Source of the DNA: an uncultured Opitutia bacterium
GTDB taxonomy: Bacteria; Verrucomicrobiota; Verrucomicrobiia; Opitutales; Opitutaceae
Length of the DNA: 64,000 nucleotides
Direction of reading: 5' to 3'
Assembly: GCA_903896015.1 (NCBI GenBank)
Contig: CAITWF010000048.1
Coordinates: 1-64,000 of the forward strand
A program made the position numbers and the translations under genes. Positions 46,239 through 64,000 of this stretch are shown here, one piece after another. A model generated the notes under the pieces. The model ran no database searches, was not told the origin of the DNA, and saw nothing but the letters and a program-made list of their open reading frames with translations. The stretch's first letter is position 1. Each line of letters opens with the position of its first letter.

Positions 46239-46257
46239 GAAGTAGGGGGAATTATTT

Positions 46258-47220: not shown

Positions 47221-47262
47221 TCCGCCGGTGCGCAAAAGTCGCGCCATACTCGCTTCGGCAAG

Positions 47263-48795
47263 CTAAGGCCGGAAATCTTTCATCCACTCTAGTTCCGCCC
47301 AGGTCGCAATCGGCGGCTGGGCCGCTCCCGGGGTGGAGCGGCCCGTTTCGATATAATGCCGCATCAGGCCGCCCAGCCGCTGCACGATGTCGGGGTGATC
47401 GGCGGCAACGTTTTGCTGCTCCGCCGGGTCGCGCGTGAGGTCATAGAGTTGATATTTGGGCAGCGTGCTCAAGTCAGTCGCGGGGACTTTCAGCCATTCG
47501 CTCGGGTTGGGCGTCGGCGAACTCCAGCCGCCCGAGCCGGGCCAGAGCAAGAGCTTCCAAGTGCCTTGACGAATGGTGAATCGACCTTCGCCCGAGTGAT
47601 GAACGAGCGCCTCGCGAAGCGGTTTCGCGGGCCGTTCGCCGCGCAGCAGCGGCGCGAAACTCACACTGTCCTCGGCGGCCGCAGCCGGCACCTCCGCGCC
47701 CAGCAAATCGGCGCACGTTGCGAAAAAGTCCAGCTGCCCAATCAACTCGCCTGACTGGGTGCCGCGTGGCACGTGTCCCGGCCAGCGCACGAGGAACGGG
47801 ATGCGGTGGCCGCCCTCGAACAAGTCGGACTTGTAGCCGCGGTAGCCGTCGCTCGGGTCGTGATTAATCGCTTTGAGCTCCGCGAGGCCGGCGGCGGGCG
47901 CGAAGCCATTGTCGGATGTGGCGACGACGATCGTATTGGCGGCGAGTCCGCTTTTTTCGAGCGCGGCGAGGATGCGACCGATGTCAGCGTCGACTTGCGA
48001 AACAAAATCGCCGTAGACCGTGGTGTGAGTCGAGCCCGCGAATTCGCGCGTTGGCAGCAACGGTGTATGTGGGGCCGCGAGCGCAAGGTAGAGAAAGAAA
48101 GGCTGGTCTGGGTGAGTCGCACGCTCGGAGAGATAATCGATCGTTTTTTCAACCAATCGCGGTTCGACTTGCTCCATCTGAAAATCCGGACTGATCACGC
48201 CCGCGCGCCAGAGTCTGGGCGGCGGGCTGTTGCCGATTTTGCCGGTGGGCAGGCTGGCCGCGCGATCGTTGGCGAGCCACACATAGGGGGGCATGTCGAG
48301 CGAGGCGGTGATTCCGGAAAATCGGTCGAAGCCGCGCGCGGTCGGGCCGCCGCCGAACGGTTTTGAAAAATCAACGTCGTCGGGATTCGGCCCGCTTTTC
48401 GCCCAGTCGACGCCAAGGTGCCACTTGCCGAACATCGCGGTGGCATAGCCATTCGCGCGCAGAAAAGCCGGCAGCGTGACGCGTCCCGGTTCGATCAAGC
48501 TGCGCTCGTAGCCATTGACGACGCCGCGCTTCAACGTGCCTCGCCACGCGTAGCGCCCGGTGAGAAGGGCATAGCGACTCGGCGTGCAGAGCGAGGACGC
48601 AGCGTGGGCGTCGGTGAAGCGCAGTCCCTCCGTCGCGAGCCGATCGAGGTGGGGGGTGCGCCAGGCGCTTTGCGGATTGTAGCACGACACGTCGCCCATC
48701 CCGAGGTCGTCGGCGAGAATGAAGACGATGTTGGGCGGTGCGGCGCGGAGCGCGCCGGTGAAAGCGAGTAGCAGAAAAATCCAGCGGCGTGTCAT
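47263..48795 (-). CDS. Exported sulfatase (S1 family, formylglycine type)
   Basis: A 510-residue sulfatase with a signal peptide (WIFLLLAFTGALRA). Catalytic signature C70-T-P-S-R74, in SSLCTPSRYALLTGRY, where the Cys is oxidised to formylglycine by a maturation enzyme that is not in this window. D29 and D30 (ILADDLGMGD) bind Ca2+. Other blocks: GKWHLG, VATSDNGFAPAAG. S1 sulfatases remove sulfate from glycans, often exo-acting. It is 15 bp after the toroid-like gene, the last gene of the operon that includes 53323-48811, and so probably acts on the same substrate. The exact substrate cannot be told. Confidence 0.92.
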   Translation of the reverse strand: MTRRWIFLLLAFTGALRAAPPNIVFILADDLGMGDVSCYNPQSAWRTPHLDRLATEGLRFTDAHAASSLCTPSRYALLTGRYAWRGTLKRGVVNGYERSLIEPGRVTLPAFLRANGYATAMFGKWHLGVDWAKSGPNPDDVDFSKPFGGGPTARGFDRFSGITASLDMPPYVWLANDRAASLPTGKIGNSPPPRLWRAGVISPDFQMEQVEPRLVEKTIDYLSERATHPDQPFFLYLALAAPHTPLLPTREFAGSTHTTVYGDFVSQVDADIGRILAALEKSGLAANTIVVATSDNGFAPAAGLAELKAINHDPSDGYRGYKSDLFEGGHRIPFLVRWPGHVPRGTQSGELIGQLDFFATCADLLGAEVPAAAAEDSVSFAPLLRGERPAKPLREALVHHSGEGRFTIRQGTWKLLLWPGSGGWSSPTPNPSEWLKVPATDLSTLPKYQLYDLTRDPAEQQNVAADHPDIVQRLGGLMRHYIETGRSTPGAAQPPIATWAELEWMKDFRP

Positions 48796-48810
48796 CGGAG
48801 AAAGTTTGCC

Positions 48811-49707
48811 TCAACGTTTTTTCGCCTTGGCTCCCGACTGCATGAACGCGAACACGCGGTCCGCCGCTTCGAGCGCCGCTTGGTCGCCGTGAATCAGGCC
48901 GTAGAGTGTGAACGCTTGCACGACCTCGCCATAGTTCACGGATTTCGCTTCGCCGGTGAAGGGCGAGGCTTCCTTGCCGACGCCGGTGCGGGTGTTGCCG
49001 GTGACGTCGATTTCGCCGGTTGGTTTGACGCGCGAGAGTTGCCATTTCATCGCGGCGGGAAGCACCGCCTCGAATTCCGGGATAGACACGTGGAGCCCGA
49101 GCACGGAGCCGAAGAGGATCGAAACGACATTGTAGCTCGAGTCGCGCCCGCCGTTTTCGATGAAGACGCCTTCTGGATCGCGCAGGGTTATCGCGTGGGC
49201 GATCAATTTCTTGGAGGTGGCGATCAACTGCTCGTCGTGGAGCACGACGCCGCAGGTGCCGAACGCCTTGGCGGCGATCACGATGCGGTTCACGGCGTGG
49301 CTGCTATCTTCGATGATGTGATCGTAGCCGGCCAGAATGAAGGCGCACGCGCGGCGCATCTTCGGTTCGAGCGCCACGATGCGATCATGGAAATGCGCCT
49401 CATGCGGCGACTCGCGAATGATGAGAACCATACGACCGCATTCCTGAAGAAAGAAAAACGCGGTCTCTACGGCCGCGCCGATCGGCTTGGCGCTTTTGCC
49501 ATTCGGGCGGTCGTTGGCTTCGAAACCGCCGTCGGTGCGCTGATGGGCGAAGGTCGCTTCGACGCCACGCCACGCCTGGTCGGCGCGCGCAAGATCGTCG
49601 ACGACGACGCCGGCGAAAACCCCGCGGCAACTGCCGCGCTGTGTTCCCGCTTCAATCCACGCGTTCATGATGTGGTTGCTGCCGGTGAAGCCGTGTTCGT
49701 CGGGCAT
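48811..49707 (-). CDS. Toroid-like protein of unknown function, probably 5'-damaged
   Basis: The ATG at 49707 (MPDEHGFTGSNHIM) is the first canonical start in this frame, giving 298 residues. However, the frame stays open upstream to about 49941 with no ATG, GTG or TTG, and its segment from 49800 down reads as protein-like (ALSAAETARTKLTEYELLRQ), overlapping the next gene's Arg-rich tail in another frame. The body consists of helical segments such as VVVDDLARADQAWRGVEATF and IEDSSHAVNRIVIAAKAFGT, resembling an alpha/alpha-toroid of lyase type. I do not recognise a family. The upstream part seems lost or its start was moved by a mutation near 49.80-49.83 kb. The sulfatase gene follows 15 bp downstream. 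Confidence 0.6.
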   Translation of the reverse strand: MPDEHGFTGSNHIMNAWIEAGTQRGSCRGVFAGVVVDDLARADQAWRGVEATFAHQRTDGGFEANDRPNGKSAKPIGAAVETAFFFLQECGRMVLIIRESPHEAHFHDRIVALEPKMRRACAFILAGYDHIIEDSSHAVNRIVIAAKAFGTCGVVLHDEQLIATSKKLIAHAITLRDPEGVFIENGGRDSSYNVVSILFGSVLGLHVSIPEFEAVLPAAMKWQLSRVKPTGEIDVTGNTRTGVGKEASPFTGEAKSVNYGEVVQAFTLYGLIHGDQAALEAADRVFAFMQSGAKAKKR

Positions 49708-51367
49708 GTCGCCGTAGAGCGCGAGCAGCCGCTCGCGCGGGATTTGGCGGAGAAGTTCGTATTCGGTCAGTTTCGTGCGGGCTGTTTCGGCGGCAGATAG
49801 CGCGCCGCAGACGATTGAGGCCAGCCACCGGCTCGACGCCGTCGAGTTTTCCGCCGTGACGAAATGCGAGTTCGAGCGCCACCGGCACGTCGTCGGTACC
49901 AGTGATCGAAATCGCGAGAGTGAATCTGCCGCTCGTCTCCGTCACTTCGACGGTCGCCTCGTAATGCTGAACGTTGCTTTGTACTCGAGCGGCGCGGCTA
50001 TCCGTGGCCAGCGTGCCGTTTGGCGCCATCCGGACGTGCTCGCCGTTGGCGATCTGCTCGGCGCTGAACGGCTGGAAATACGGGCCATCGAGTTTTTGCC
50101 GCAGCACATAGCGCCCGCCGCGCACGACGAGATCGTCGCTCGCGAACTGGCCCTTGCCGAAGAACGCGCCCGCAAGGCGGACGGCTTCGAGCGCAGCGGC
50201 GCCTTTGCGAAATGAAAACAGCGTGGTGTTGGCCGCGAGCACGGTGCCGCTGACGGTGCCACGGCGGATGCGGGCGAGGTTTGAGTAGGAAAACGTTTTC
50301 GCGTAGTCGGTCGGAAGCGCTGCGTCGGTCGGCAGCGCGCTTTTCAGTTCGGGCTCGGTGAGAAAGGCGGCGAGTTCGCCGGTGAGTTGCGGGCGTGCGT
50401 TGCGCTCGATCTCTCGTGCCATGGCCGCGAATCGGCCGTTACCGTCGCGCAGGGCGAGAAATCGGTAAGAATAGTAGTAGCGCGCCATGCTACCGCGTTG
50501 ATAGCGATCCTGGCGGCGCGAGGCTTCGGTGACGACTTCGCCGTCGGGATGCACGTAGTAGAGGGTCATCTCCAGATTGCGTCGCACCGGCTCTAGCAAC
50601 GCCGGCCGATCGAGGAGGCGTGAAACGTTAAGCAGCGCGCGGTCGACGACCGGTGAGTAGACCGAGGTGCTCTTTTCGGTGAACTGACCGTCGGGATCGA
50701 GATCGATGCCTTCAGCGAGCCACTGATCGATGCGCGCCAAAAGTTTCGGGTGGGGAAACAGCGAATGGATCGAGGCGAGTCCGCCGCAGACCACCCAGCG
50801 ATGATTCGGCGTGTGCACGCCGCCCGTGGCGAGGGCGTCGCCGGCCTTGACGATGAACTTGGCAAGTTCGTCGGCGACGGACGTGAATTCCGGCGCGCGG
50901 CTGGCGCGGAGCAGGCGATAGGCGGGGCAGAGCGCCTCGAGGCAAAACGCCGTGTCGGGTGGCGAATGAAAATTAGTCTCGGGCAAATCGGTGGTGCCGT
51001 CGTCATGCTGTGCGACGAGCAGGTAGCCCGCGGCGAGGCGCAGCGGTTCGGCGATCTCGGCGGAGCGAAAATACTTGGAGTCGCGCGCGCTGATCGCACT
51101 GGCGACCGCGGCAACGAAACCTGAAGTGGCGCGCGCGAGGTGGATGCCGAATTCGTTGGGTATGCCCCCAAGCCAGCGATGACCGGCGCGCCTTTCCTGA
51201 GCGGCGAGTTGCGCGGGAATCGACGCGTCATTGGCGCGGATGAGTTCGCGTAAGAGTGAATCGGTCTCGGTCGGAGCGGGACGAGCGTCAGCGCCAAATG
51301 CCTTGAATCCGATCGCGCCGAGACCGGCGGCGGTCACGGAGACCTTGAGAAAATTTCTGCGATGCAT
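49652..51367 (-). CDS. Tat-exported toroid/beta-sandwich protein, C-terminus probably disrupted
   Basis: This 571-residue protein starts at the ATG at 51367 with a twin-arginine signal (MHRRNFLKVSVTAAGLGAIG). The helical N-terminal part (residues ~45-340) includes YLLVAQHDDGTTDLP, GGVHTPNHRWVVCGGLAS and TEKSTSVYSPVVDRALL, with His, Asn and Tyr positions like those used in heparinase/alginate-lyase alpha/alpha toroids; a beta-rich half follows, with YVLRQKLDGPYFQPF and VALELAFRHGGKLDGVEP. After about residue 515 the sequence turns into a 45-residue Arg-rich tail that overlaps the next gene out of frame, so the real C-terminus seems lost. Family unknown. It lies 37 bp after the gene at 51404-53323, likely in one operon. 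Confidence 0.6.
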   Translation of the reverse strand: MHRRNFLKVSVTAAGLGAIGFKAFGADARPAPTETDSLLRELIRANDASIPAQLAAQERRAGHRWLGGIPNEFGIHLARATSGFVAAVASAISARDSKYFRSAEIAEPLRLAAGYLLVAQHDDGTTDLPETNFHSPPDTAFCLEALCPAYRLLRASRAPEFTSVADELAKFIVKAGDALATGGVHTPNHRWVVCGGLASIHSLFPHPKLLARIDQWLAEGIDLDPDGQFTEKSTSVYSPVVDRALLNVSRLLDRPALLEPVRRNLEMTLYYVHPDGEVVTEASRRQDRYQRGSMARYYYSYRFLALRDGNGRFAAMAREIERNARPQLTGELAAFLTEPELKSALPTDAALPTDYAKTFSYSNLARIRRGTVSGTVLAANTTLFSFRKGAAALEAVRLAGAFFGKGQFASDDLVVRGGRYVLRQKLDGPYFQPFSAEQIANGEHVRMAPNGTLATDSRAARVQSNVQHYEATVEVTETSGRFTLAISITGTDDVPVALELAFRHGGKLDGVEPVAGLNRLRRAICRRNSPHETDRIRTSPPNPARAAARALRRHARRTRLHRQQPHHERVD

Positions 51368-51403
51368 GAGCAGGGAGACGGGTGGGGTGCGGGGCGGATG
51401 CAA

Positions 51404-53323
51404 CTATTCTTCGCGGCGAATGCCTTTTTCAAAATTCAGCAGCAGCCGTCTGCCGCCAAATTCGATCGTTATGCTCTGTGGTTGGCGAACCGTCCGGGCG
51501 TAGGGCGAATCGTGGCGGGAAAAATCGGAATTCTGGAGGACGCCATTGACGCGAAAATCTTTTTGATAAGCCAGCTTCAGCTGGCGCGACCCGGTGCCGT
51601 AGGTGAGGACGCTTTCGCGGTAAGTGAACACGTTGCGGTCAACGCGGCGGACAAAGGCATCGAAATCGCCGTCGCGACCGGCCGATCCGAGCTCACAAGC
51701 CCACGCGGTGTCGCGCCCTACCTGTATAAGATCGTCGGTGGAGTTGGCGCGATAGGTGAGCGGGCTGGCGCCGATCAGCGCGACATAAACGTCGCCGTGT
51801 TTTCCATAGGCGCGCGAGCCTCGCAGCTCGATTCGATCGAAGCGGGCCTGCGGAAAATAGGCGTGAGTGAAAAGATTTGGGCCGTTTTCGCCGAGTGACG
51901 TGCGCGTGGGCACGCGGTAGATTTGCAGGCAGACGTTTTCGTGCTGCGCAGCGTCCGGCAGGCGGCCCGGACCCATCCAGTAACTGGGATCAGTGTCGGG
52001 TGACTTGCCTTTGCGGGGCACCGGCGGATGCGCGGTGAAGACGCTCAGCCGATTCGACAAGGTCGCGCTCCAAACGTGGTGTTGGTCGTTGAGCGTGCCC
52101 GGATGATAGCGCTGGACGCTGGCCAACAGAAAGTCGGGCGTGCGGTAGGTGTAGGTGTTGGCGCGCTGGAGCACGGTCGCATTGGACCAGGGATCGAGCA
52201 CGCGGGTGATCGTGGGCAGCAGGCCGGTGCGGCGCAGAAGGAAAAAATCCACTGAGCGAAGGTCGTGCAGGAACGAGTTGGAGAATAGATGTTTTTTTTC
52301 GACGTAGCGCATCGTCTCGTCGATCACCTCCGGATTGGTAAATGCCTCCATGCCCCATTGGAGCATGATGCGTGAGTCCTCGGTGCCGGCGAGTTGCTCG
52401 GCAGGGAGTTCGGCTAGATCGAGGCCTTGGGAGGCTTTGATGATGGTTGGCGAGACATCGCGCCCGATCGCTTCGATTACGGAGGGAACTTGGTAGCGTT
52501 CGCGAAAGAGAAAGATGCCATCCATCCGCCGGCCATCGGGGATCGGAAGATCGAAGCCCCAAATATTTTGGATGATGCCTCGCATCGAGTTGCCCTCTTC
52601 GCCGCTTCTACGATTCCGGTCGTAGGCCCGGCCCATTGTGGAGACGAAGGTTCCGCGATGGGATTGCGTCGCGACGTCGAACAGCAGCAGGTCGAGGATG
52701 ATTTTGCTCTTCGTGACGATCTCCGCGTCGTTGCTGAAATCGATCAGATTGCAGAGCGGGGCGACGTCCTCGACATAGTAAACGTTGGAATACCACTCGG
52801 AGAACCCATAGCGCCAGCGCTGCTCAAGCCAGGTGAGGACGCGCCGGCGTGCATCGGTCATGTGCGCACGGCCGGTGCGGCCATCGCGCGTGAAGACCTG
52901 CTCCGGGAATTTCTGACCGACGAGATATTCGGCGGAGGCGTAGAGGATTTGATGGTTTTCGCTCCAATAGCAGTGCCCGTCCTCCCCGGGCTGATCCATC
53001 CAATAGCGGAGGTTGAAAATCGCAGCGTGGATTTTTGCGAGGTTCACCGCGTCGATCGCTTGGCTGTGGCGATAGACGATGCGAATGAGCGGGGCCATGC
53101 GGAAGTCTTCGAGTTGCTCGAGCGTGCCCTCAAGGTTGGCCCAATCGACCGGTCGGCCCTGCTGCGCGTCGACCAAGTCGTCGTGAACGTTGATTTTCCG
53201 TCCCTTCGTTGTGTCCGGCAGAATCGGAATTCGGCGGTGCCTCGCGACATCACGCACCACTGATGCGACCAACAGCAGCGCCACGAGCGCAAACAAGGCG
53301 AGAACGCGCCGCCGGGTGATCAT
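51404..53323 (-). CDS. Membrane-anchored uncharacterised protein, heparinase-like toroid candidate
   Basis: A 639-residue protein starting at the ATG at 53323, followed by RRRVLALFALVALLLVASVV, an uncleaved anchor or signal. The helical part contains HCYWSENHQILYASAEYLVG and EWYSNVYYVEDVAPL, Trp/Tyr/His/Asn-rich stretches of the kind that line active-site clefts of alpha/alpha-toroid lyases; the C-terminal ~200 residues are beta-rich (DVYVALIGASPLTYRAN, SITIEFGGRRLLLNFEKG). I recall similar WSENHQ proteins as hypothetical; none named. The gene heads the minus-strand operon with two further toroid-like genes and the sulfatase, and a LacI-type operator lies 219 bp upstream, so regulation by the LacI-type protein is inferred. 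Confidence 0.65.
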   Translation of the reverse strand: MITRRRVLALFALVALLLVASVVRDVARHRRIPILPDTTKGRKINVHDDLVDAQQGRPVDWANLEGTLEQLEDFRMAPLIRIVYRHSQAIDAVNLAKIHAAIFNLRYWMDQPGEDGHCYWSENHQILYASAEYLVGQKFPEQVFTRDGRTGRAHMTDARRRVLTWLEQRWRYGFSEWYSNVYYVEDVAPLCNLIDFSNDAEIVTKSKIILDLLLFDVATQSHRGTFVSTMGRAYDRNRRSGEEGNSMRGIIQNIWGFDLPIPDGRRMDGIFLFRERYQVPSVIEAIGRDVSPTIIKASQGLDLAELPAEQLAGTEDSRIMLQWGMEAFTNPEVIDETMRYVEKKHLFSNSFLHDLRSVDFFLLRRTGLLPTITRVLDPWSNATVLQRANTYTYRTPDFLLASVQRYHPGTLNDQHHVWSATLSNRLSVFTAHPPVPRKGKSPDTDPSYWMGPGRLPDAAQHENVCLQIYRVPTRTSLGENGPNLFTHAYFPQARFDRIELRGSRAYGKHGDVYVALIGASPLTYRANSTDDLIQVGRDTAWACELGSAGRDGDFDAFVRRVDRNVFTYRESVLTYGTGSRQLKLAYQKDFRVNGVLQNSDFSRHDSPYARTVRQPQSITIEFGGRRLLLNFEKGIRREE

Positions 53324-53424
53324 GATGGGGAGCGCGCAATCCGCTGATAGGTGGATTGCGTCCGATTCAGCCGGCTTGATTCGAAATGAGTCACGAAGGG
53401 TGGAGGCAGGATGAGAGTAAATTG

Positions 53425-53447
53425 GCCCGTCAATTTTTCTGACGGGC
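53425..53447. promoter_or_regulatory. Perfect inverted repeat (leader hairpin candidate)
   Basis: GCCCGTCA (53425-53432) pairs with TGACGGGC (53440-53447) across a 7-nt loop (ATTTTTC on the plus strand). It lies about 100 bp upstream of the ATG at 53323, downstream of the operator, so it would sit in the 5' untranslated leader of the toroid operon. No T-tract follows on either strand, so it is not a standard terminator; an RNA stabiliser or binding site is possible. Confidence 0.45.
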
Positions 53448-53541
53448 ACTGAGGGGATTTGATTGGGAGGTGGCCCAGCTAACCGGTCGGGCGTTCAGCC
53501 CCATGTTCTTTCGGGTTTGGGCAACATCAAGTTCCACCACG

Positions 53542-53556
53542 GTGCAAGCGTTGCAC
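53542..53556. promoter_or_regulatory. LacI-family operator candidate (copy 1)
   Basis: GTGCAAGCGTTGCAC is an inverted repeat with 6-bp arms around a central GCG. Its 13-bp core TGCAAGCGTTGCA is identical to the two copies at 61275 and 61379 beside the LacI-type gene. The position is 219 bp upstream of the toroid operon start (minus) and 113 bp upstream of the TPR gene start (plus). The form fits LacI-family half-sites such as TGNAANCG. Confidence 0.65.
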
Positions 53557-53668
53557 TGGGCCTGCGTTGGGGGCGCGCGCAGATGAAATTTGTTCGACCT
53601 GCGCAATTTTGAACTGACATCAGACTGCACGGGGATGTGATCGCAGGCATTGCTCCACCTCCGCGCTG

Positions 53669-55831
53669 ATGATCCGCCGATTTTTTTCTCAGCTCTTTGA
53701 TTCGGATCAGAAACCGGACGAGGTCGGGACTACACCAACGTATGTGGTTTTGGCTGGCCTGGCCTTCGGCATCGCGTGGCTGACGTATTGGCCCGCGCTG
53801 TCAGGCGGCTTGCTCTGGGACGACGCCGCCCATGTGACCGCGCCCGCGCTGCGGTCGCTGCGGGGCCTTGTTCGCATTTGGGCTGAACTCGGAGCGACGC
53901 AGCAATATTATCCGACACTGCATACCGCGTTTTGGATTGAGCACCGGCTCTGGGGCGATGCCGTGATCGGCTACCATGCGATAAACTTGATGCTTCACAC
54001 GGCGGCGGCGGGACTTTTTTGGGCAGTTTTGCGTGAACTGCGGATAAGGGGGGCGGGACTCGCCGCGCTGCTGTTTCTGTTTCATCCTGTCTGCGTCGAG
54101 TCGGTCGCCTGGATCTCGGAACAGAAGAATACGCTTTCGCTCGTGTTCTATCTGGGGTCCGCGTTGACCTACCTGAAGTTTGATCGGGAGCGTCGCGCCT
54201 GGCTCTATGCGTTCGGGCTGATCCTCTTTCTGCTGGCGCTTTCAACCAAGAGCGTCACGGCGACGCTGCCTGCTGCGCTGCTGGTAGTGATGTGGTGGAA
54301 GCACGGTGTTCTCACCTGGAAACGCGACGGACGACCGCTGCTGCCATGGCTGATCGTGGGGGCGGGAGCCGGGCTGTTCACGGCGTGGGTTGAGCGCACG
54401 GTGATCGGCGCAAACGGCGCGGACTTTGATCTGACGGTTGGCATGCGCATGGTTTTGGCCGGTCGCGCGCTGGCGTTCTACCTCGGCAAACTCTTCTGGC
54501 CGGTGAACCTCTCCTTCGTCTATCCCCGCTGGACGATCGATCCGGCTATTGGTTGGCAGTTGCTTTTTCCGATCGTTTGTGGGGCGGCGCTCGTGATCCT
54601 CCTCGCGCGGTTGCCGCGGCAGCGAGGGCTGGTTGCGGCGGCGCTGGTTTTTTCGGGCACACTTTTTCCGGCCCTCGGCTTCTTCAATTTGTATCCCTTC
54701 AGGTATTCCTACGTGGCGGATCATTTCCAGTATCACGCCAGCCTTGCGATTTTCGCGGCGGCGGGCGCTGGCTGGGCCGAGGGGAGTGAGGGCGTGGGGC
54801 TGCAGGCGGTTCGTTGGCGTCGCCTGATTCCAGCGGTCGCGGCATGTGGGATTTTAGCCGTTTTGGCGTTTCAGTCCCACCGCCAAAGCCCCAACTATTC
54901 CGATGTCGAGACGCTCTATTTGGCCACACTCGAGCACAACCCCGGCTGTGTCCTCGCGCATAACAACCTCGGAATGATCCTGGCGCGGCGCGGCGACTCA
55001 GCTGCGGCTATCGAGCACTTTCGCCGGGCTATCGAGGCCAACCCGAACTACGCTGAGGCGGAAGACAATCTCGGCGGCGAGTTGGCCAAGCTCCCCGGCC
55101 GCGAACGTGAGGCGGCAGCGCACTTCGAGGCAGCCCTACGGATTCATCCGGATTTTCCCATGGCCCAGATCAACCTCGCCAACGAACTCGCGTTGATCCC
55201 GGGCCGGTGGCCGGAAGCCGAGCGGCACTTTCAGCGGGCGCTGGAATTGAAGCCGAACTATGCGAAAGCACATAACGATCTCGCGATTGGGCTGGCGCGA
55301 ATTCCCGGGCGTCGCGCGGAGGCGCTCGATCATTACGCCGCCGCGCTGCGAATCGATCCCGGTTACGCGGCTGCACGGGCCAATTTTGCCTTTGAACTTT
55401 CCCGCGATCCTGGGCGGATACGGGAAGCTCTCGATCAGTATGCGGTGGCGCTCGCGGCGGATCCCGCGCAGGCCGAGGCTCATAATAATTTCGCGAACCT
55501 GCTGGCGGGGATTCCCGGGCGACAGGCTGAGGCGATGAGCCACTACGAGGCGGCATTGCAAGTGAGAGCCGACTTCGCAGAAGCCCACAACAATCTCGCG
55601 AACGAGTTAATCAAGGACCCCGGCCGCGTTGCCCAAGCGCTGTCGCATTACGAGGCAGCCGTGCGGATAAAACCTGACTATGCAGAGGCGCACAACAATC
55701 TCGCCATCGCCTATGCGAATGAAGGCCGGATCGAAGAAGCGGCGCGGCATTTTCAGCTGGCGATCAAAATCCGGCCAGACTTTCAGGCGGCGCGCGACAA
55801 TCTGAGCCGACTGTTGGCCCCGCACCTGTGA
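53669..55831 (+). CDS. Multi-pass membrane protein with long TPR array (TMTC/GT-C-like)
   Basis: A 720-residue protein with ~10 membrane segments in residues 25-410 (opening with VVLAGLAFGIAWLTYWPALSG), then ~8 TPR units to the C-terminus. LLWDDAAHV in the first loop has the acidic pair expected of GT-C transferases; CVESVAWISEQKNTLSLVFY and RYSYVADHFQYHASL are TMTC-family blocks. Most TPR units have a period of 35 residues with a PGR insertion (NLANELALIPGRWPEAERHF); the last has 34. Sugar-transferase function is inference. It is more distant from the paralogs at 4761 and 55863 than these are from each other. The next gene starts 31 bp downstream. Confidence 0.75.
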   Translation: MIRRFFSQLFDSDQKPDEVGTTPTYVVLAGLAFGIAWLTYWPALSGGLLWDDAAHVTAPALRSLRGLVRIWAELGATQQYYPTLHTAFWIEHRLWGDAVIGYHAINLMLHTAAAGLFWAVLRELRIRGAGLAALLFLFHPVCVESVAWISEQKNTLSLVFYLGSALTYLKFDRERRAWLYAFGLILFLLALSTKSVTATLPAALLVVMWWKHGVLTWKRDGRPLLPWLIVGAGAGLFTAWVERTVIGANGADFDLTVGMRMVLAGRALAFYLGKLFWPVNLSFVYPRWTIDPAIGWQLLFPIVCGAALVILLARLPRQRGLVAAALVFSGTLFPALGFFNLYPFRYSYVADHFQYHASLAIFAAAGAGWAEGSEGVGLQAVRWRRLIPAVAACGILAVLAFQSHRQSPNYSDVETLYLATLEHNPGCVLAHNNLGMILARRGDSAAAIEHFRRAIEANPNYAEAEDNLGGELAKLPGREREAAAHFEAALRIHPDFPMAQINLANELALIPGRWPEAERHFQRALELKPNYAKAHNDLAIGLARIPGRRAEALDHYAAALRIDPGYAAARANFAFELSRDPGRIREALDQYAVALAADPAQAEAHNNFANLLAGIPGRQAEAMSHYEAALQVRADFAEAHNNLANELIKDPGRVAQALSHYEAAVRIKPDYAEAHNNLAIAYANEGRIEEAARHFQLAIKIRPDFQAARDNLSRLLAPHL

Positions 55832-55862
55832 GCATCCTTCGAATCCCACGGACGGCAGAAGC

Positions 55863-57752
55863 ATGATTCCTCCTCGCGCGCGCATGCGCTCCACGCATCC
55901 CAAGGCTTCCGTGGCGACGCCCACAACGCCGGCCGATAAAAACTTGCCGGGCCGGTTGTTCGCGGCGGCGATTATCACCATCGCCACGGCGGCAGTCTAC
56001 GCGAACAGCTGGTCGGGCCCGTTTGTTTTCGATGATCAGGCGTCGATTTTGCACAACGATTCGATCCGTCATCTTTCGGACTTGGGCGCGATATTCTCCC
56101 CGCCGGGGGAAGGTTTCACGGTGGATGGCCGGCCGATCCTGAATCTTTCGCTCGCGATTAATTATGCGATCAGTGGCACCCAAGGGTGGAGTTACCACGC
56201 GCTCAACGTGGTCATCCACATTCTGGCGGCACTCACACTTTTTGGCATCGTGCGTCGGACACTGGGGCGGACAATCGGAGTGCGCGGCGTTGGCAACGAG
56301 ACGGGGACGGTGGGAGTCAGCGACGCAAGCGTGCTCGGGATGGCGGTGTCGCTGCTTTGGGCGCTGCATCCGCTCCAGACGGAATCGGTGACTTACGTCA
56401 TTCAGCGTGCGGAGTCCTTGATGGGACTGTTTTATCTGCTGACGACTTACTGTTTCATTCGGGCCGCGGAGGCTTCGCCCGGCCCGACGGCATTGCGATG
56501 GTCTGCACTTTCATGGTTGGCCTGTTTTGTCGGCATGGGGACCAAGGAGGTCATGGTGTCCGCGCCGCTCATGGTTTTTCTGTATGATGGAATTTTTGTT
56601 TCAGCAGGGTGGCGCGCGGCGCTCCTGCGGCGGTGGAAGTATTACGCCCTCCTTGCGCTGACCACCGGCGTGTTGCTGGCGCTCGCCCTTCGAACGGGTT
56701 CGCGGGGAGGAACCTCGGGCTTCGGGATCGACGTCACGCCGTGGATGTATTGGCAGACGCAATTTCAAGCGGTCGCGCACTACCTGTGGCTCTCGTTCTG
56801 GCCGGGCACGCTGATCTTCGACTACGGTGTCCGTTGGACGAGCGGTCTCGCCGATGTGCTGCCATATGCGGTCATCGTGGGCCTGTTGGTCGTGGCAACG
56901 GGAGTGGCGCTGTGGCGGCGCCACGCTACGGGATTCTTAGGTGCGTTCTTTTTCGCGATCCTTGCCCCGACCTCGATCGTCCCGGGCAATCGCCAAACGC
57001 TCGCGGAGCACCGGATGTATTTGCCGTTGGCGGCGGTGATCGTGCTGGTCGTGGTCGGGGCCAACCGCCTGATCGCTGACGCACACCGCAGGAAATTTTT
57101 GGCGACGGCGTGGCTGCCACTGGCACTGATCGCATTGCCCCTCGCGGCGGTGACTGTCCACCGCAATGAAATTTATCGGAGCGAACTGACGCTCTACCGC
57201 GACACGGTCGCCGGGCGACCCGGAAACGCTTCGGCCCACACGAATCTGGGTAATGCGTTGCGCAACGCCCGACGTTATGAGGAGGCGATCGTCGAATATG
57301 AAGAGGCGCTCAGGCTCCGGACCGATTCTCCGCAAGTGCACTACGATTTGGCCGGCGCGTTTTCCGCTTCCGGCCAATTGCTGCAGGCAATCGTTCATTA
57401 CGAAGAAGCTCTGCGCCTGAAACCCGAATATGCCGAGGCGCACAATAATCTGGGCATTGCCCTCGCGCGCTCCGGGCGGGACGGGGAAGCGATTGGACAC
57501 TTGTCCGAAGCGGTGCGGCTCAACCCTGCCAGTCCGGAGGCGCATTTGAACTTTGGTCTCGTCCTCATTCGGACCGGTCGCCTTTCGGAGGCGATCGAAG
57601 AATACCGACAGACCTTGCGGCTTGATCCGGGATTCTATCGCGCCCGCGAAGCGATGGGCAACGCGCTGCGGCTCGCGGGTCGCGAGCGCGAGGCTGCGGA
57701 GGAATTGGAGACGGCCGCCCGACTTCAGGCGGCGCGGCTTTCGCCGCGGTAG
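55863..57752 (+). CDS. Multi-pass membrane protein with TPR repeats (TMTC/GT-C-like)
   Basis: A 629-residue paralog of 4761-6758 (both contain SGPFVFDD, SLAxNYAI, ESVTYVIQRxESLMGLFYL and EHRMYLPLAA). Membrane segments run from about residue 33 to 430, followed by five TPR units (PEYAEAHNNLGIALARSGRDGEAIG is typical). FVFDD in the first periplasmic loop is the likely catalytic acidic site if it is a GT-C transferase using a polyprenyl-phosphate sugar. It is probably co-transcribed with the TPR gene 31 bp upstream and convergent with the TonB receptor gene. Confidence 0.75.
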   Translation: MIPPRARMRSTHPKASVATPTTPADKNLPGRLFAAAIITIATAAVYANSWSGPFVFDDQASILHNDSIRHLSDLGAIFSPPGEGFTVDGRPILNLSLAINYAISGTQGWSYHALNVVIHILAALTLFGIVRRTLGRTIGVRGVGNETGTVGVSDASVLGMAVSLLWALHPLQTESVTYVIQRAESLMGLFYLLTTYCFIRAAEASPGPTALRWSALSWLACFVGMGTKEVMVSAPLMVFLYDGIFVSAGWRAALLRRWKYYALLALTTGVLLALALRTGSRGGTSGFGIDVTPWMYWQTQFQAVAHYLWLSFWPGTLIFDYGVRWTSGLADVLPYAVIVGLLVVATGVALWRRHATGFLGAFFFAILAPTSIVPGNRQTLAEHRMYLPLAAVIVLVVVGANRLIADAHRRKFLATAWLPLALIALPLAAVTVHRNEIYRSELTLYRDTVAGRPGNASAHTNLGNALRNARRYEEAIVEYEEALRLRTDSPQVHYDLAGAFSASGQLLQAIVHYEEALRLKPEYAEAHNNLGIALARSGRDGEAIGHLSEAVRLNPASPEAHLNFGLVLIRTGRLSEAIEEYRQTLRLDPGFYRAREAMGNALRLAGREREAAEELETAARLQAARLSPR

Positions 57753-57810
57753 GAGAATGATTCGCAGATCCCGCATCCTCCGGCGTGCCGATCTGAGATG
57801 AGAGAAAGCG

Positions 57811-57843
57811 AAAAGGCGGCAGCCGACCAGCGGCAGCCGCCTT
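57811..57843 (-). terminator. Terminator hairpin of the second TonB receptor gene
   Basis: AAGGCGGC pairs with GCCGCCTT (57813-57820 with 57836-57843), extended by an A-A mismatch and a further 4-bp GCCG/CGGC stem with a 5-nt loop. On the minus strand it is followed by TTTTCGCTTTCTC. It is 34 bp past the receptor stop codon and between convergent genes. Confidence 0.75.
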
Positions 57844-57876
57844 CACATCAAATCAATCCTGTTTCGGATTATCGGC

Positions 57877-60800
57877 TTAGAAGTTCGCTTTCAGGCCGGC
57901 GGTCCACACGGGCTGATAGATGGCGCGATGGTAGTTCTTCGCGATGGCCGGAGTGTTCGGACTGTAGCGCAGTTCGGTCGGCTCGTAACCCGAGATGTCG
58001 CGTCCGTTGATAAAGAGGGACAGGTTCTTTGTTGCACGGAAGCTGACGTCCAAATCGACGCGGATGGCTCCGCGGCGATACATGAACTCGTTGGGTTCGT
58101 AGGTGGGCGTGGAACTGGTCGTGAAGTCCAAATATTGCAGGCGCGTCTTCGAAGTGGCCTTGGAGTTGACCGAGACGGAGAACCGGCTGCGCGTTAGGCT
58201 CACGCCGAGGCCCGCAGTATACGGGACGATGTAGAGATTTTGCGCCGCAAACTGCACGGCCATCACGCCGCCACCGGTCTGAGTTGACCTGGTGCCGCTA
58301 GCGACGACACGGAGGCCGCGTGCCCAATCAGGGAGAAGTTTGTCGAGCAAGTAACTGCCGCTGAGTTCCAAACCTGATGTGACGATGCGACCGGTCATAT
58401 TGATGGGCGTGCGCAGCACCGAGCCGGGGAATTCGGCCGAATTGATTCCATAGGTAGTCAAGTAGTCCGCCGTCTGAGCCACGGTGAGGGTATTCGTTCC
58501 GAACGCGTTGTCGACGAACCGGCGGTAGCCGCGCACGGTGAAATTCGAACGCCCATCCGGAGCGTAATATTCCAACGACGCGCCAAAATTATTGGAGGTC
58601 CACGGCTTCAGCGCCGGATTGTTGGCGTTGATGATCGTTGTGGCCGTCGGATCGAGCGTCGTTGGGTCGGGTAGGTTGAGACTCGGATAGATGTTATTAA
58701 AATCGGGACGACCGATAGTGTGGCCGCCGGACACGCGCGCGACGAGGTTGGGGTTCAGATCGTAGCTCACCGCCAGGCTCGGAAAGTAGTTGTTGTAGCG
58801 GGCGCTCGATTGACTCCCGTTCATGATGTAGTTGGCGTGGGCTTGAGCGAGCGAGTTTACAGGGTAGAGCAGCTGGATGGTCTGCCCTTTGCCGGCCTGA
58901 TAGACGCCCCCCTGCGTGTTGAGGATCTGGCCTTGAGCATTCTTCGCGTAATTGCCGCCGGGATTGAAATACGGGCCCGTGCCGAAGTCGCGGGTCTGCT
59001 CGAAGCGAACGCCGTAGGCGAATTTTAGCCGTCCGTGGAGCATACTGCTGTCGGCGCGGATATAAGCGGCCGGAACATCCTCCCGGACAGAAAAGCTCGA
59101 GGTGACTGCAGAGCTGTAATCATTCCACGGGCGAGACTCTACAAAGAGACTCAGATTGGCTGCTTGATAGGCAGCGATGGCTGCGGGGTCGAGGAACTGC
59201 GCGACACCATAGTTGCCGATCATCGGAGTGTTGTAGCCCTTAAGAATAAAATCGGTTCCCGGACGGGTGCCAAGATAGATATAGCCCTGACCATTCCCAC
59301 CCAGAACCGGATCCGTATTTGCGCGTTTGCTTTGATGCGAATAGTTGAATCCCACTTTAAGCGTGGTGGGAAAATCGGGGATGGCAAAATCGCGACTGGC
59401 CGAACCCTTGCCCTCGAAGCGGTGATCCGAGGACCAGAGCGGCTTATAGCGGATGGCTGGCAGGTTGCTGGGAACGTTGGTCAGCGCTCCGGTGATCGGG
59501 TCGTAATACTGTCCCGCAAAATTGCCGGCCGCCACGAAGCTTGCCAGACTGGACGGATCGAGCACCGTGCCGTTCGGGGCGATGGCCGAGATACTTTGTG
59601 GACCCCATTCTCCGATGTTGTTAAAGTGGAGCTGCTGCAGCGGCCGAATGTTGTAGAGGATCGAGAAGACGGTGCCGACATCGCGGTCGCGGTTCTGCTT
59701 GCGGGAATTTCCGTAGCTTTCACCGAGATCGACCTTCCATGCGCCGATGCGGCCTTCGTAGGAGAGAGTCTCTTGTCGGTTCGCTTCATTTACAACCCAA
59801 GTCGTGGACTGGTTCAGCACTCGGGGCTGAAGTGACGTCTGATTGATTTCCACCTGATTGGTGAGCGTGGAGCGAGTGAGATCAACCCACCCAGTATTGC
59901 CCCAGGCGAGGTTGCGGGCGCCATATTCCAGCGTGTTGTAAGCTTGGGTAAAGCTCGCGTGCAGCGTGCCGTTCTCTGCGACTTTGTAGTCGCCCGTAAG
60001 ATTAAAGCTCGTGCGCTGGTAGGTCGAAAGAACGCTGTTAAGATTCTGGCCGTCTGAAGTGTAGTGGGACGGAATCAGCGGAGTGTCCTTGTAACTGCCG
60101 GCGCCGGTGGTCTGGTTGTAGAGATAATTGGCATTCCACGACTCCGTTTGATCGACATAGGCTTTCGGAACGGTGTTGGTGCTGAAGGTCGCCGAGAAAC
60201 CAAAGCGCTTGTTTACCGGAATAATCGCCGAGAGGACCATGCCGGGGAACGTCGTTTTGATCTTGGAGGAGAGCGGTCCGTCCATGCGGCTCTGCCCGAT
60301 CTTGTTCTGATCCGCAGCGCCGAATGCGGTGAGCGTGTAGCTAGGCTTGTCGTGCTCGAATGCTGACTTGGGCACGAAGTTGATCGAACCGGCTAGCGCG
60401 CTACCCGGATCGTCCGGCAGCGTGGTGTGGTTGACCTCGATGCGGGAAATGTTGTTGAGCGACATTTGCATCAACTGCGTGGAGCGCTGCGGGATGCTCT
60501 GCAGGCCGACCGGGCTGATACCCTGACCGGGGACCTCGGCCGAGGTCGTCATCTGAAAGCCGCCGAAGCCGATCGGGACATTCGCGCTGGGGGCGCCTGA
60601 CAGGGTCACCGAATTGCCGTAGCCGTAACCGTCTTGTTCAAGATCGACGCCAGGTAGAAACTTTAGGGCGTTGGCAATGCTGCCGTCGCCGATGAAACCG
60701 AGATCGTCAACGGCGACGACGCTCTTGAGATTCGACGCATACCGCTGGGTATTGATGGCCAGTTCCGTAGCGCCCATCGCCTTTTCCACGTCCACGCGAA

Positions 60801-61164
60801 AAGCGTCCATTTGCACGACTTCGCTGCGAGAACGGAGGCCCACGTCGGTGACCGCGGAGCCGCCGGCCTGCACCACCACCGGCACGTCCTGCGAGAGCAG
60901 ACCCGTGTAGAGGACATGAAGGGTTACCGAGCCGGCCGGGATGCCATCCAATCGGTAGGAGCCCGATTGGTCGGTTGACGTGGTCGCACCGGCAATCGGT
61001 GTGGACCCCGCGACCACTTGGATCTGTGCACCGTAAAGGTAACTGCCAGTTTCAGAATTCTGGACGCGACCGACAATCGAGCCGGTGGGGGCGGCGAAGA
61101 GGCCAAGACTGAGCAAGGGGAGGATCGCAAACGCGATCCGTGCAAACGAGCGGGTAGGATACAT
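57877..61164 (-). CDS. TonB-dependent outer-membrane receptor with N-terminal carboxypeptidase-like domain
   Basis: A 1095-residue receptor from the ATG at 61164, with signal peptide (FARIAFAILPLLSLGLFAAP); a TTG four codons upstream is unlikely. Residues ~28-110 form a carboxypeptidase-regulatory-like beta-domain (GSIVGRVQNSETGSYLYGA, TDQSGSYRLDGIPAGSVTLHV), followed by a TonB-box-like VVQMDAFRVDVEKA, a plug (VDDLGFIGDGSIANALKFLPG, with TLPDDPGSALAGSINFVPK) and a beta-barrel ending in GLKANF. This build is typical of SusC-like and related glycan receptors in Verrucomicrobiota. Palindromic operators lie about 110 and 215 bp upstream, next to the divergent LacI-type gene, so its regulation by that protein is inferred. 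A terminator hairpin follows. Confidence 0.9.
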   Translation of the reverse strand: MYPTRSFARIAFAILPLLSLGLFAAPTGSIVGRVQNSETGSYLYGAQIQVVAGSTPIAGATTSTDQSGSYRLDGIPAGSVTLHVLYTGLLSQDVPVVVQAGGSAVTDVGLRSRSEVVQMDAFRVDVEKAMGATELAINTQRYASNLKSVVAVDDLGFIGDGSIANALKFLPGVDLEQDGYGYGNSVTLSGAPSANVPIGFGGFQMTTSAEVPGQGISPVGLQSIPQRSTQLMQMSLNNISRIEVNHTTLPDDPGSALAGSINFVPKSAFEHDKPSYTLTAFGAADQNKIGQSRMDGPLSSKIKTTFPGMVLSAIIPVNKRFGFSATFSTNTVPKAYVDQTESWNANYLYNQTTGAGSYKDTPLIPSHYTSDGQNLNSVLSTYQRTSFNLTGDYKVAENGTLHASFTQAYNTLEYGARNLAWGNTGWVDLTRSTLTNQVEINQTSLQPRVLNQSTTWVVNEANRQETLSYEGRIGAWKVDLGESYGNSRKQNRDRDVGTVFSILYNIRPLQQLHFNNIGEWGPQSISAIAPNGTVLDPSSLASFVAAGNFAGQYYDPITGALTNVPSNLPAIRYKPLWSSDHRFEGKGSASRDFAIPDFPTTLKVGFNYSHQSKRANTDPVLGGNGQGYIYLGTRPGTDFILKGYNTPMIGNYGVAQFLDPAAIAAYQAANLSLFVESRPWNDYSSAVTSSFSVREDVPAAYIRADSSMLHGRLKFAYGVRFEQTRDFGTGPYFNPGGNYAKNAQGQILNTQGGVYQAGKGQTIQLLYPVNSLAQAHANYIMNGSQSSARYNNYFPSLAVSYDLNPNLVARVSGGHTIGRPDFNNIYPSLNLPDPTTLDPTATTIINANNPALKPWTSNNFGASLEYYAPDGRSNFTVRGYRRFVDNAFGTNTLTVAQTADYLTTYGINSAEFPGSVLRTPINMTGRIVTSGLELSGSYLLDKLLPDWARGLRVVASGTRSTQTGGGVMAVQFAAQNLYIVPYTAGLGVSLTRSRFSVSVNSKATSKTRLQYLDFTTSSTPTYEPNEFMYRRGAIRVDLDVSFRATKNLSLFINGRDISGYEPTELRYSPNTPAIAKNYHRAIYQPVWTAGLKANF

Positions 61165-61274
61165 GGTTGGGTTCAAGGGCGTTTTCTTCAGGGGTGGTGT
61201 TAGCTCATGGGTGTGAGCTGGGGTAGCCGGTCGCTATAATGCTAAGTTCCTGGCCTTAGTCTTGCGAAATGTGA

Positions 61275-61287
61275 TGCAAGCGTTGCA
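61275..61287. promoter_or_regulatory. LacI-family operator candidate (copy 2)
   Basis: TGCAAGCGTTGCA, a perfect palindrome with the central base as axis, in the divergent gap between the TonB receptor (start 61164) and the LacI-type gene (start 61398). It is 110 bp upstream of the receptor start, and 104 bp (almost ten helical turns) from copy 3. A plus-strand TATAAT occurs at 61235-61240 but has no good -35 element. Confidence 0.7.
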
Positions 61288-61378
61288 AAAGTTTTGACGG
61301 AAGTCCCGGACGAGCGTCGAGGTGGTTGCTGCCGATCGCTCATTGGACGGCAAAAGTGTTGAGTCGCACCGCTGGTGA

Positions 61379-61391
61379 TGCAAGCGTTGCA
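61379..61391. promoter_or_regulatory. LacI-family operator candidate (copy 3), overlapping the ribosome-binding region of the LacI-type gene
   Basis: TGCAAGCGTTGCA again, with flanks giving TGATGCAAGCGTTGCAATCA. Its right end lies 6 bp before the ATG at 61398, so binding here would block transcription elongation or translation start of the regulator gene, as in autorepression. Confidence 0.7.
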
Positions 61392-61397
61392 ATCACA

Positions 61398-62435
61398 ATG
61401 TCCACCCTGTCTCTCGGTTCAATTGCCGCGACGTGCGGCGTTTCGGCGTCCACGGTTTCGCGCGCCCTCTCGGGCCATACCGCGGTGCGTGAAGCGACCC
61501 GGCGGCGCATCGTCGCTGCGGCGCGAAAACTCGGCTACCGCCGAAACGATCTGGTGGGGAAACTCATGGCGCATGTGCGCACCGGTCGGACGCAGCGGTT
61601 CCTGGGAAACCTTGCGGCCATCCACGTGCCGTCAAAATCGCAGCCGCGCATGCTGCCAACGCACCGAAAAATCATTGCGGGTGCCATTGCGCGGGCGCGC
61701 GAACTCGGGTTTCAGCTCTACGAATTCAGTGTCGGGCAGGATGGGCTGGGGCCTGGCGGCTATGCGCGCGTGCTTCGTGCCCGGGGCGTGCACGGCGCAA
61801 TCTTTCTATACACCGAGCCGACCTCGATTATGGCGGATTTCCCGTGGGATGAATTTGCGACCATCGAGATCGACTACGGGCAACGCGAGCCGCTGCTCCA
61901 CACGGTTTGTCTCGATCATTACACGACATTGCTCGGCGCGTTGGAGCGACTCCAGTCGCTCGGCTACCGGCGGATTGGATTTTTTGTAACTGAGTTCAAG
62001 GACCACCGCATCGCGCACAAGTGGTCGGCGACGTTTGCGTCGTTTCAGCGCCACTGGCTGGATGCAGGCAACATTCCCATGCTGATATCGGACGACATCG
62101 AAGAGGCTTCGTTTTCGAAGTGGTATCGGCGTTATAAGCCGGACGTGGTGATCGGGCATGTGGACGAGGCGGTCACCTGGTTGCAGCGTGCCGGCGTGCG
62201 CGTGCCGGCGGACACGGGATTTTTCAATCTCAACTGGACTGAACGTAAACGCCCGTGCGCCGGCCTTGATCTGCGCATGGAACTCCAAGGCAGTGTCGCC
62301 GCCGAGGCTCTCATCGCACAGATTCAGCGCAGTGAACGCGGCCTCCCGGCCGACCCTCGCACGATCATGATTTCAGGCCGGTGGGTGGATGGACCGACGC
62401 TTCGGCGCGTAAGCGCAGCTTCGGCGTCGAGCTGA
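61398..62435 (+). CDS. LacI-family transcriptional regulator
   Basis: A 345-residue regulator. I chose the ATG at 61398 (MSTLSLGSIAATCGVSASTV), where the helix-turn-helix starts immediately, as in the family; an earlier in-frame Met would put the operator inside the coding region. The DNA-binding domain (residues 1-55) shows SLGSIAATCGVSASTVSRALSGHTAVREATRRRIVAAARKLGY, with the hinge helix after it. The effector-binding part (60-345) is less conserved in appearance and has a long inserted GPGGYARVLRARGVHGAIFLY-type segment. It is divergent from the TonB receptor. Its effector is presumably a sugar derived from the glycan imported by that receptor. Three operator-like palindromes in the window match its class. 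Confidence 0.9.
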   Translation: MSTLSLGSIAATCGVSASTVSRALSGHTAVREATRRRIVAAARKLGYRRNDLVGKLMAHVRTGRTQRFLGNLAAIHVPSKSQPRMLPTHRKIIAGAIARARELGFQLYEFSVGQDGLGPGGYARVLRARGVHGAIFLYTEPTSIMADFPWDEFATIEIDYGQREPLLHTVCLDHYTTLLGALERLQSLGYRRIGFFVTEFKDHRIAHKWSATFASFQRHWLDAGNIPMLISDDIEEASFSKWYRRYKPDVVIGHVDEAVTWLQRAGVRVPADTGFFNLNWTERKRPCAGLDLRMELQGSVAAEALIAQIQRSERGLPADPRTIMISGRWVDGPTLRRVSAASASS

Positions 62436-62458
62436 TCGACCGCGGGTGTCGGCGGCGA

Positions 62459-64000
62459 TCAGTCGATCTGTAGTTCGGTGACCGACCAGTTTCCGGCTCC
62501 GCCGCCGCGCTTGGCCGTCGATTTGACAATGACGTAGCGACCGCGAATTCCGGCCGGAAGATCGATCACGGTCCGATCGCGTCGGCCAGAGGCGGTGGCG
62601 CGCGCGGCTCCAGGATTTGAGAGATCGTCGGTGACAAAGACTTCGACCGTCCCCGGGTAATCGCCGACACGACCGGTCTGATCGAGCGTGATGCGGTGGA
62701 TGGGCCGCGCCTGCTTGCAGTCGACTTGAATCCATTGGCCGGCAGTGGCCGGCACGGACCACGCGGTCTTCGCGTTGCCGTCAACCATTCGGCTAGCTTG
62801 ATCTGCGCTGGCGGAGGCGGTGATGATGGGCGGCCATACCCGGTTTACTCGAATAGACAGCGCGGCGTCGCGTGCTTCCGCCGCTAGGGCCGGATCGGAC
62901 TGGAGTTTTTCGGCGAGCGTGAGAGCAGTGTCGCTCGTGCCCCGGCCGAGCAGAATAAGTAGCGACTTCCGTGTCTCAAGATCCTTTGCGATGGTCAGCA
63001 GACGCGCGACGTCGTCCGGTGATTCCTTGGCGGGCGTCTCGCGCTTGCGCTCGATAAAGCCGATGGCGCCTTTGATTGCGGCTGCACGCGCTTCGTCGAG
63101 CGTTGCTTTCTCCGCCGTCGTGATCAGGACGGGCAGCGCGTTGCGCTCAGGCCAGCGCGAGAGTGTGTCAGTCGCGGCCAAAGCAACTTTTGCGTCCGAC
63201 AGGCAAGCGAGCCGGCCGGCGCATTCGGCGGCCGCGGCGCTGCTGAGCCGAGTGAGCACAGGCAGGAGGCGGAGCTGAACCTCGGCCGTGCCGTGATCGA
63301 CCGCGTCGACCACGAGCCGGTCGCGGGCGGCTTCGTCATGGTTGCGGAGTGAGATGCTGGCGAGGGCGCGCTGGGCGCGCGCAATTTCTTGGTTGTCGGT
63401 CGCCGAAATCATCCAGGCGAGAACGGCGGCTTGATCGGTCGCGGGCGCGAGTTCGCCCAGCGAACGGAGAGCGGCGGCGCGCACGGTGGCATCCGGGTCG
63501 GCGCGGATTTTCCAAAGCAGGGGAAACGCCTCGGTCAGATTGCGCGTGGCGACGGCTTCGAGCATAACGACACGCAGCTTCGCGTCGCCCGCGGCGGCGG
63601 TGGCGAGGATAGCGTCGTTGACGCCGGGTCCGTTTAGCCGCGCGAAACTTTGCCGTGCGAGCTTGGCTTCGTCGCCGGTGGCGGTGACGAGAAATTGGGC
63701 AAGCTCGAGTGCGCCCTCGCGGGTGCCGGGCAGTTTGCCGATCGCCGCGAGAGCGGCGGCGCGCACGGCGGGATCGGAATCGGCGATCGCCTTCGAGACC
63801 GCGGGCACGGCGGCCGCATCGCCGAACGCCGCCAGTGCCCCAATCGCGGCGGCCTGCGTGGGCGCGTCGAACGTCGACAGCTTTGCAGCGAGTGGCGCGA
63901 CGATCGCGTTGGCCGGCAGCGCGCTAATCGCCTCGAGGGCGACGCGCTTGGCGGCGAGATCGTCGCCTGCCAGCGTGGTGAGAATGGTCGCGGGCGCGGA
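62459..64000 (-). CDS. HEAT-repeat protein with C-terminal discoidin-like domain (5' end outside window)
   Basis: The frame is open to the window edge, so the N-terminus is missing; the last 513 codons are seen. The N-terminal part shown consists of ~10 HEAT-type repeats (for example ADPDATVRAAALRSLGELAP, SDPAVRAAALAAIGKLPG), about 30-37 residues each. The C-terminal ~140 residues (ASADQASRMVDGNAKTAWSV onward, with GQWIQVDCKQARPIHRITLD and GRYVIVKSTAKRGGGAGNWSVTELQID) form an F5/8 type C (discoidin) carbohydrate-binding-like domain. In this phylum such proteins are often long, multidomain and linked to ThuA or glycan genes; the role is unknown. It is convergent with the LacI-type gene. Confidence 0.8.
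   Translation of the reverse strand, partial: SAPATILTTLAGDDLAAKRVALEAISALPANAIVAPLAAKLSTFDAPTQAAAIGALAAFGDAAAVPAVSKAIADSDPAVRAAALAAIGKLPGTREGALELAQFLVTATGDEAKLARQSFARLNGPGVNDAILATAAAGDAKLRVVMLEAVATRNLTEAFPLLWKIRADPDATVRAAALRSLGELAPATDQAAVLAWMISATDNQEIARAQRALASISLRNHDEAARDRLVVDAVDHGTAEVQLRLLPVLTRLSSAAAAECAGRLACLSDAKVALAATDTLSRWPERNALPVLITTAEKATLDEARAAAIKGAIGFIERKRETPAKESPDDVARLLTIAKDLETRKSLLILLGRGTSDTALTLAEKLQSDPALAAEARDAALSIRVNRVWPPIITASASADQASRMVDGNAKTAWSVPATAGQWIQVDCKQARPIHRITLDQTGRVGDYPGTVEVFVTDDLSNPGAARATASGRRDRTVIDLPAGIRGRYVIVKSTAKRGGGAGNWSVTELQID

Follow-up and report, generated by a model that had tools for sequence, protein, structure and literature searches.

LacI-family proteins usually repress catabolic genes, and a position upstream of the -35 hexamer is an unusual place for the operator of a simple repressor. 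In the main text of Ravcheev et al. 2014 (PMC4052901), 1251 of 1303 LacI-family operators are even palindromes and about 4% are odd, more than three-fourths of the local regulators of the family are autoregulated, and the word Verrucomicrobi is absent. The LacI operator O1 of Escherichia coli is odd and asymmetric, with an extra base between its half-sites (PMC2978694, sections on O1). For the global regulator CcpA of Bacillus subtilis, which belongs to the LacI/GalR family and works with HPr-Ser-P, activation is seen from cre boxes that lie upstream of -35 and repression from those that overlap the promoter, the lev operon being an exception that is repressed from an upstream box (PMC3463425, sections on cre position). 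In the open-access literature, which mostly leaves out subscription papers, we recognised no described LacI regulon in Opitutaceae or Verrucomicrobia.

The present study concerns a window of 64,000 nucleotides, by which we mean the whole stretch of DNA analysed, from an uncultured Opitutia bacterium. It carries three copies of the 13-mer TGCAAGCGTTGCA (Table 1), most likely binding sites of a sugar-sensing LacI-family autoregulator encoded beside the third copy. An operator-like site at the regulator gene together with sites at neighbouring utilisation genes, as found here in the sequence, is the mark of an autoregulated local sugar regulon. The locus resembles the local LacI regulons of PMC4052901, as far as that text describes them, in its LacI-family regulator, inverted-repeat operator, apparent autoregulation and neighbouring sugar-utilisation genes, but its operator is of the rarer odd kind, has a fixed orientation and stands at a fixed 11 bp from a -35-like hexamer. 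With E. coli LacI on O1, as treated in PMC2978694, it shares an odd, asymmetric operator, whereas the half-site here is TGCAA, the genes are others and the relatives checked have no second operator near lacI. With CcpA it shares the protein family and sites both over and upstream of (here putative) promoters, and it differs in being local (compared with the sections of PMC3463425 cited above). The kind of switch is familiar, and the host bacterial family is one where such switches are little described; the finding gives a testable operator and regulon for a family in which the open-access literature yielded no recognised LacI regulon.

Table 1. Coordinates of the genes and putative regulatory features in the window
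Feature	Position	Strand	Remarks
Sulfatase	47263..48795	-	PF00884 5e-56
P0008, unknown family	48811..49707	-	conserved together with P0006
P0006, lyase-fold protein (predicted)	49652..51403	-	N-terminal signal-like stretch; C-terminus unlike relatives (alignment); no Pfam/NCBIfam family
P0005, unknown family	51404..53449	-	no Pfam/NCBIfam family; 73% identical orthologue in L106
Putative operator core, site 1	53543..53555	+	exact copy; upstream of P0005 lyase/sulfatase operon (- strand)
TonB-dependent receptor, carboxypeptidase-regulatory-like domain	57877..61176	-	PF00593 2.1e-21, PF07715, PF13620; ATG 61164, TTG 61176
-10-like hexamer CATTAT, putative receptor promoter	61236..61241	-	conserved columns 47, 51 after operator start
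-35-like hexamer AAGACT, putative receptor promoter	61258..61263	-	fixed spacing to operator
Composite element GTC-N13-operator, site 2	61259..61287	+	pattern match
Putative operator core, site 2	61275..61287	+	exact copy; upstream of TonB receptor (- strand)
Composite element GTC-N13-operator, site 3	61363..61391	+	pattern match
Putative operator core, site 3	61379..61391	+	exact copy; 6 bp before lacI start codon; place conserved in related lacI loci
LacI-family regulator	61398..62435	+	PF00356 1.8e-12, PF13377 3.9e-8, both above cut-off

A first-pass annotation of the window had described the 13-mer as a palindrome present in three identical copies, unlikely by chance, which would define a LacI regulon. 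All three copies proved to be exact and lie on the plus strand. The 5-bp arms TGCAA and TTGCA are indeed inverted repeats, but the GCG between them is asymmetric, which makes the palindrome incomplete. This spacer is of odd length both in the window and at the sites of relatives, unlike in the canonical even-length LacI palindrome with its CG centre; a flanking T is present in 26 and a flanking A in 30 of 44 elements of relatives. When the whole genome (4,961,130 bases) was scanned for exact copies at unrelated loci, none was found beyond these three; with both orientations summed and the window composition, independent bases would give 0.12 expected copies and a dinucleotide model 0.28. The reversed control of the 13-mer had no exact copy. 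The probability of three random points falling within such a span is about 7.5e-6. Copies with one mismatch numbered four in the rest of the genome, the reversed control having six. Each of the four overlaps an open reading frame (ORF) from the mechanical list, and the one at L005 falls right where its ORF begins; they look like background, and further regulon members among them were judged unlikely because of this overlap and the six control copies.

The gene behind site 3 encodes an N-terminal LacI helix-turn-helix (PF00356, 47.3 bits, cut-off 27) and a C-terminal periplasmic-binding-protein-like sensor domain (Peripla_BP_3, PF13377, 34 bits, cut-off 26.5). Upstream regions of orthologous genes were compared, as the first-pass annotation had proposed. 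A search of 200 family genomes gave 30 matches taken as loci, 29 of them with upstream DNA (L017, which has none, was left out; L022 and L023 are near-identical). The 13-mer, with 0-2 mismatches, stands just before the start codon in 27 of these 29 loci and in one orientation throughout, so that the inverted repeat in front of lacI is conserved at the level of sequence comparison; of the two exceptions, L035 has no such site and L021 has, in the corresponding position, a similar repeat that differs at three bases. In the 27 loci the distance from the 13-mer to the recognition-helix codons ranges from 58 to 69 bases and the reading phase varies, for which reason we rejected conservation of the 13-mer as coding sequence. 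Comparison of recognition-helix residues with operator variants by eye gave no clean rule. The 6 bp between site 3 and the lacI ATG at 61398 were confirmed, and since the operator lies against the start codon, a bound dimer would block initiation and the gene would be autorepressed. This gap (61392-61397) is similar in relatives and leaves little room for a Shine-Dalgarno sequence; being so short, it suggests that lacI may be transcribed with a very short leader that lacks one.

Across the family the bare 13-mer is not specific, with 44 matches in 36 of 200 genomes versus 16 reversed-control matches in 14 genomes. Aligned contexts revealed a second block at a fixed distance, giving a composite element GTC-N13-TGSAWGCGTTGCA, which reads in operon orientation as TGCAACGCTTGCA, 11 bp and a CTGACA-like hexamer. 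Among 252 family genomes, 38 carry the composite element, with 50 matches in total, and its reversed control has no match. As the pattern presupposes both GTC and core, the unselected figure is the one to consider: of 60 core contexts taken without such selection, 41 have GAC at the fixed place, and it occurs at most four times at any of 16 neighbouring offsets (within 8 bp). Outside the family, 212 genomes of a class-wide sample (236 in all) yielded one composite match versus three control matches.

Among 49 distinct elements, 34 point to a TonB receptor, seven to a Gfo/Idh-like gene and one to P0005; lacI, searched for with a loose expression, is on the other side in 31 of these 42. Eleven of the 49 stand before a TonB receptor or P0005 with no lacI found alongside. 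The seven with neither neighbour, one of which comes from the class-wide scan, look like chance. At the genome level, the element occurs in 25 of the 26 genomes whose best lacI relative reaches 51% identity or more, and in six of the remaining 174 (200 genomes in all), in a count that treats related and hence not independent genomes, that places G156 (element present, 70% identical lacI fragment) among those without a relative, and in which the matching element of G159 is not at lacI. Together with the elements away from lacI and the conservation at lacI itself, this co-occurrence supports the regulon of regulator, TonB receptor and degradative operon that had been proposed from the window.

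Two readings that deny the regulator its part can be weighed at this point. If the copies were chance or coding repeats without function, one would expect results such as the two-mismatch count in the window, which is not significant by itself (4 found versus 2.23 expected; 18 of 100 shuffles reach 4), and the seven composite matches without a matching neighbour. Uniqueness in the genome, conservation across genera with shifting phase and the empty reversed control for the composite element in 252 genomes speak against this reading; we regard it as refuted by the last of these and by the conservation at the lacI loci, and give it hardly any credence. It is also improbable, though less extremely so, that another regulator, either a LacI paralogue or an unrelated factor, binds the 13-mer and merely has its sites near this lacI as a common location. 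Further LacI-like proteins exist in the genome (10 scored matches in G000) and the more distant relatives L036 and L037 keep a similar site, but the site precedes 27 of 29 lacI relatives and the composite element tracks them from genome to genome. We keep to the adjacent LacI-family protein as the probable binder. That its own gene, the receptor and the lyase/sulfatase operon form a local LacI-family regulon is a conclusion that we draw with high confidence from these sequence comparisons.

Site 2 is 98 bp from the start of the receptor ORF, and clear ATG starts in relatives lie at 89-110 bp. Toward the receptor operon the order is operator, 11 bp, CTGACA-like hexamer, 16 bp and a weak -10-like block. 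The block was seen in a column test on 44 elements with pairwise identities below 60%, in which columns 47 and 51 reached 0.58 and 0.67 bits against a 99% shuffle limit of 0.34, giving [CT][AT]NNNT at 16 bp beyond the hexamer; columns 37 and 39 were likewise above the limit and may belong to the lacI promoter. Hexamer and block would have the geometry of a -35/-10 pair, which we infer only from these columns because generic sigma-70 promoter scans of the window's two intergenic regions gave nothing. On this putative promoter the operator centre would be near -52. Terminator scans of the same two regions gave nothing either, and no Rfam family was found within 46000-64000.

The sites follow one orientation rule, being reversed relative to the operon and forward relative to lacI, and the rule fits all three sites of the window, pairing site 1 with the P0005 operon, site 2 with the receptor and site 3 with lacI. 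A scan for the P0006 family gave at least 80 loci. Verrucomicrobia and their neighbours account for 43 of the matches listed (L106-L147, L158), and 10 of these have the core motif TG[CG]A[AT]GCGTTGCA; it is absent from the remaining 37, mostly from Bacteroidota. In seven of those 10 a copy is found 3.4-3.8 kb ahead of P0006, immediately upstream of a TonB receptor. Of the operon sites that seemed at first to be away from lacI, 10 of 10 kept both the 11-bp spacing and the orientation, with a mean spacer identity of 0.40; this figure uses 10 of 14 sites, and L116, at a contig end, may adjoin a lost lacI. GAC is present in 13 of the 14 sites, the exception being site 1 of the window. At the loci of relatives, simple gene calling left some wrong-frame ORFs (e.g. 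in L076 and L079).

The preservation of the 11-bp spacing despite such dissimilar spacers suggests that a protein bound at this fixed distance and orientation could touch RNA polymerase. We consider it somewhat more likely that the operon is repressed by default and would be released when an oligosaccharide derived from the polymer binds the sensor domain. The fuller statement, with the 13-mer as LacI operator core of a local polysaccharide-utilisation regulon and default repression at the operon, has in our judgement slightly better than even chances on the sequence evidence. The main rival is activation, which the fixed operator-to-hexamer spacing would allow: the LacI-type protein would repress lacI and activate the receptor/lyase operon, with a ligand that promotes binding. 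The constancy of spacing and orientation over differing spacers fits this, as does the precedent of CcpA, which acts in both ways according to box position, although the same protein represses lev from upstream (PMC3463425, as above). Several points weigh on the other side. Most local regulators of the LacI family repress, and it would be odd for a catabolic locus to be turned on by unliganded LacI, so that a co-activating ligand is required; the promoter elements are themselves putative, and the fixed spacing could also reflect repression by contact or shared ancestry. We thus see a dual mode of action as possible but the less probable course. Its most specific form, in which one asymmetric, oriented operator has opposite outputs, turning lacI off and the divergent polysaccharide locus on from 11 bp upstream of the -35-like hexamer, is put forward a shade more tentatively; if true, it would mean a LacI-type local activator spread through an Opitutaceae-like family. 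The fixed geometry makes the choice between repressor and activator directly testable.

DNA looping between sites 2 and 3 had also been suggested from their centre spacing. The spacing of 104 bp is correct, but such a pair was seen in this genome only: of the lacI loci whose upstream DNA is available, the remaining 28 show no second separate copy of the 13-mer within 800 bp, and at L024 the one further match, with two mismatches, overlaps the first. On this ground we rejected looping as a conserved feature.

The degradative operon runs downward on the minus strand from 53449 and comprises P0005, P0006, P0008 and the sulfatase; the P0005 start is likely the ATG at 53323. Under the preferred reading, site 1 would bring this operon under the same regulator. 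In a relative of the same genus (G025; L077/L106) the P0005 operon has the same upstream site and shares its contig with lacI. Site 1 has ATC where the composite element has GTC; GAC is absent there, and it may be the weaker site. It could instead serve the TPR membrane genes at 53669, 113 bp further on, which is less likely since the orientation rule and the G025 relative favour the P0005 operon. These two adjacent membrane/TPR-repeat genes (53669-57752, plus strand) separate the lyase operon from the TonB receptor. Among the relatives' loci searched, genes like them were seen next to a different LacI paralogue of the genome (L091) and not in the lyase clusters.

The predicted structure of the P0006 orthologue in L106 (pLDDT 87.6) has a toroid plus beta-sandwich fold as in PL8/PL12/PL17-like lyases. 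Its closest fold is heparinase III (4fnv; Z 17.5, rmsd 5.2, 434 aligned), Z values of 15-17 were obtained against glycosaminoglycan (GAG), hyaluronate and alginate lyases, and the fold is shared with HepC (4mmh), GAGases, PL33 and PL17, although identity to these lyases is only 9-14%. Invariant residues are present among P0006 relatives. A PDB sequence search gave no match for P0006 and one at E 0.46 for P0005, and a P0006 profile gave three weak hyaluronate-lyase matches (E 0.078-0.13). In the model, the P0006 orthologue folds like a polysaccharide lyase of the heparinase, hyaluronate or alginate type. Combined with the sulfatase, the lyase fold of the orthologue suggests that the controlled genes form a polysaccharide-utilisation locus for a sulfated, perhaps uronate-containing polymer. 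The structure model of P0005, built with two sequences, was poor (pLDDT 34.2) and was set aside.

A regulator tied to an uncharacterised lyase-fold/sulfatase cluster, whose P0006 proteins were found in Bacteroidota and Planctomycetota too, offers a handle on its substrate. The named relatives of the P0006 locus are, among the matches listed, mainly Opitutaceae/Opitutae metagenome-assembled genomes, which suggests a place for the window within or close to Opitutaceae. The P0005 family is rare: among 103 genomes, strong matches were limited to the genus relative (73%) and G289 (42%), with weak partial matches in nine more. P0006 of the window is without about the last 60 residues of its relatives, and P0008 starts later than in the G025 relative (49600-49760, minus strand). 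As the frames of both genes also run into each other, this points to either a deletion or an error in assembly.

In a more distant lacI group, TGCAATCGTTGCA or TGCAACCGTTGCA sites are found near lacI in L094 (5468, 6575, 11995) and L096 (6409, 9057), and in L094 also near a TonB receptor; judged by these sites, the group may represent a sister regulon whose specificity has changed. In G121, ORFs at L076 15946-18740, a few kb away from the lacI relative, resemble CRISPR-associated cas genes.
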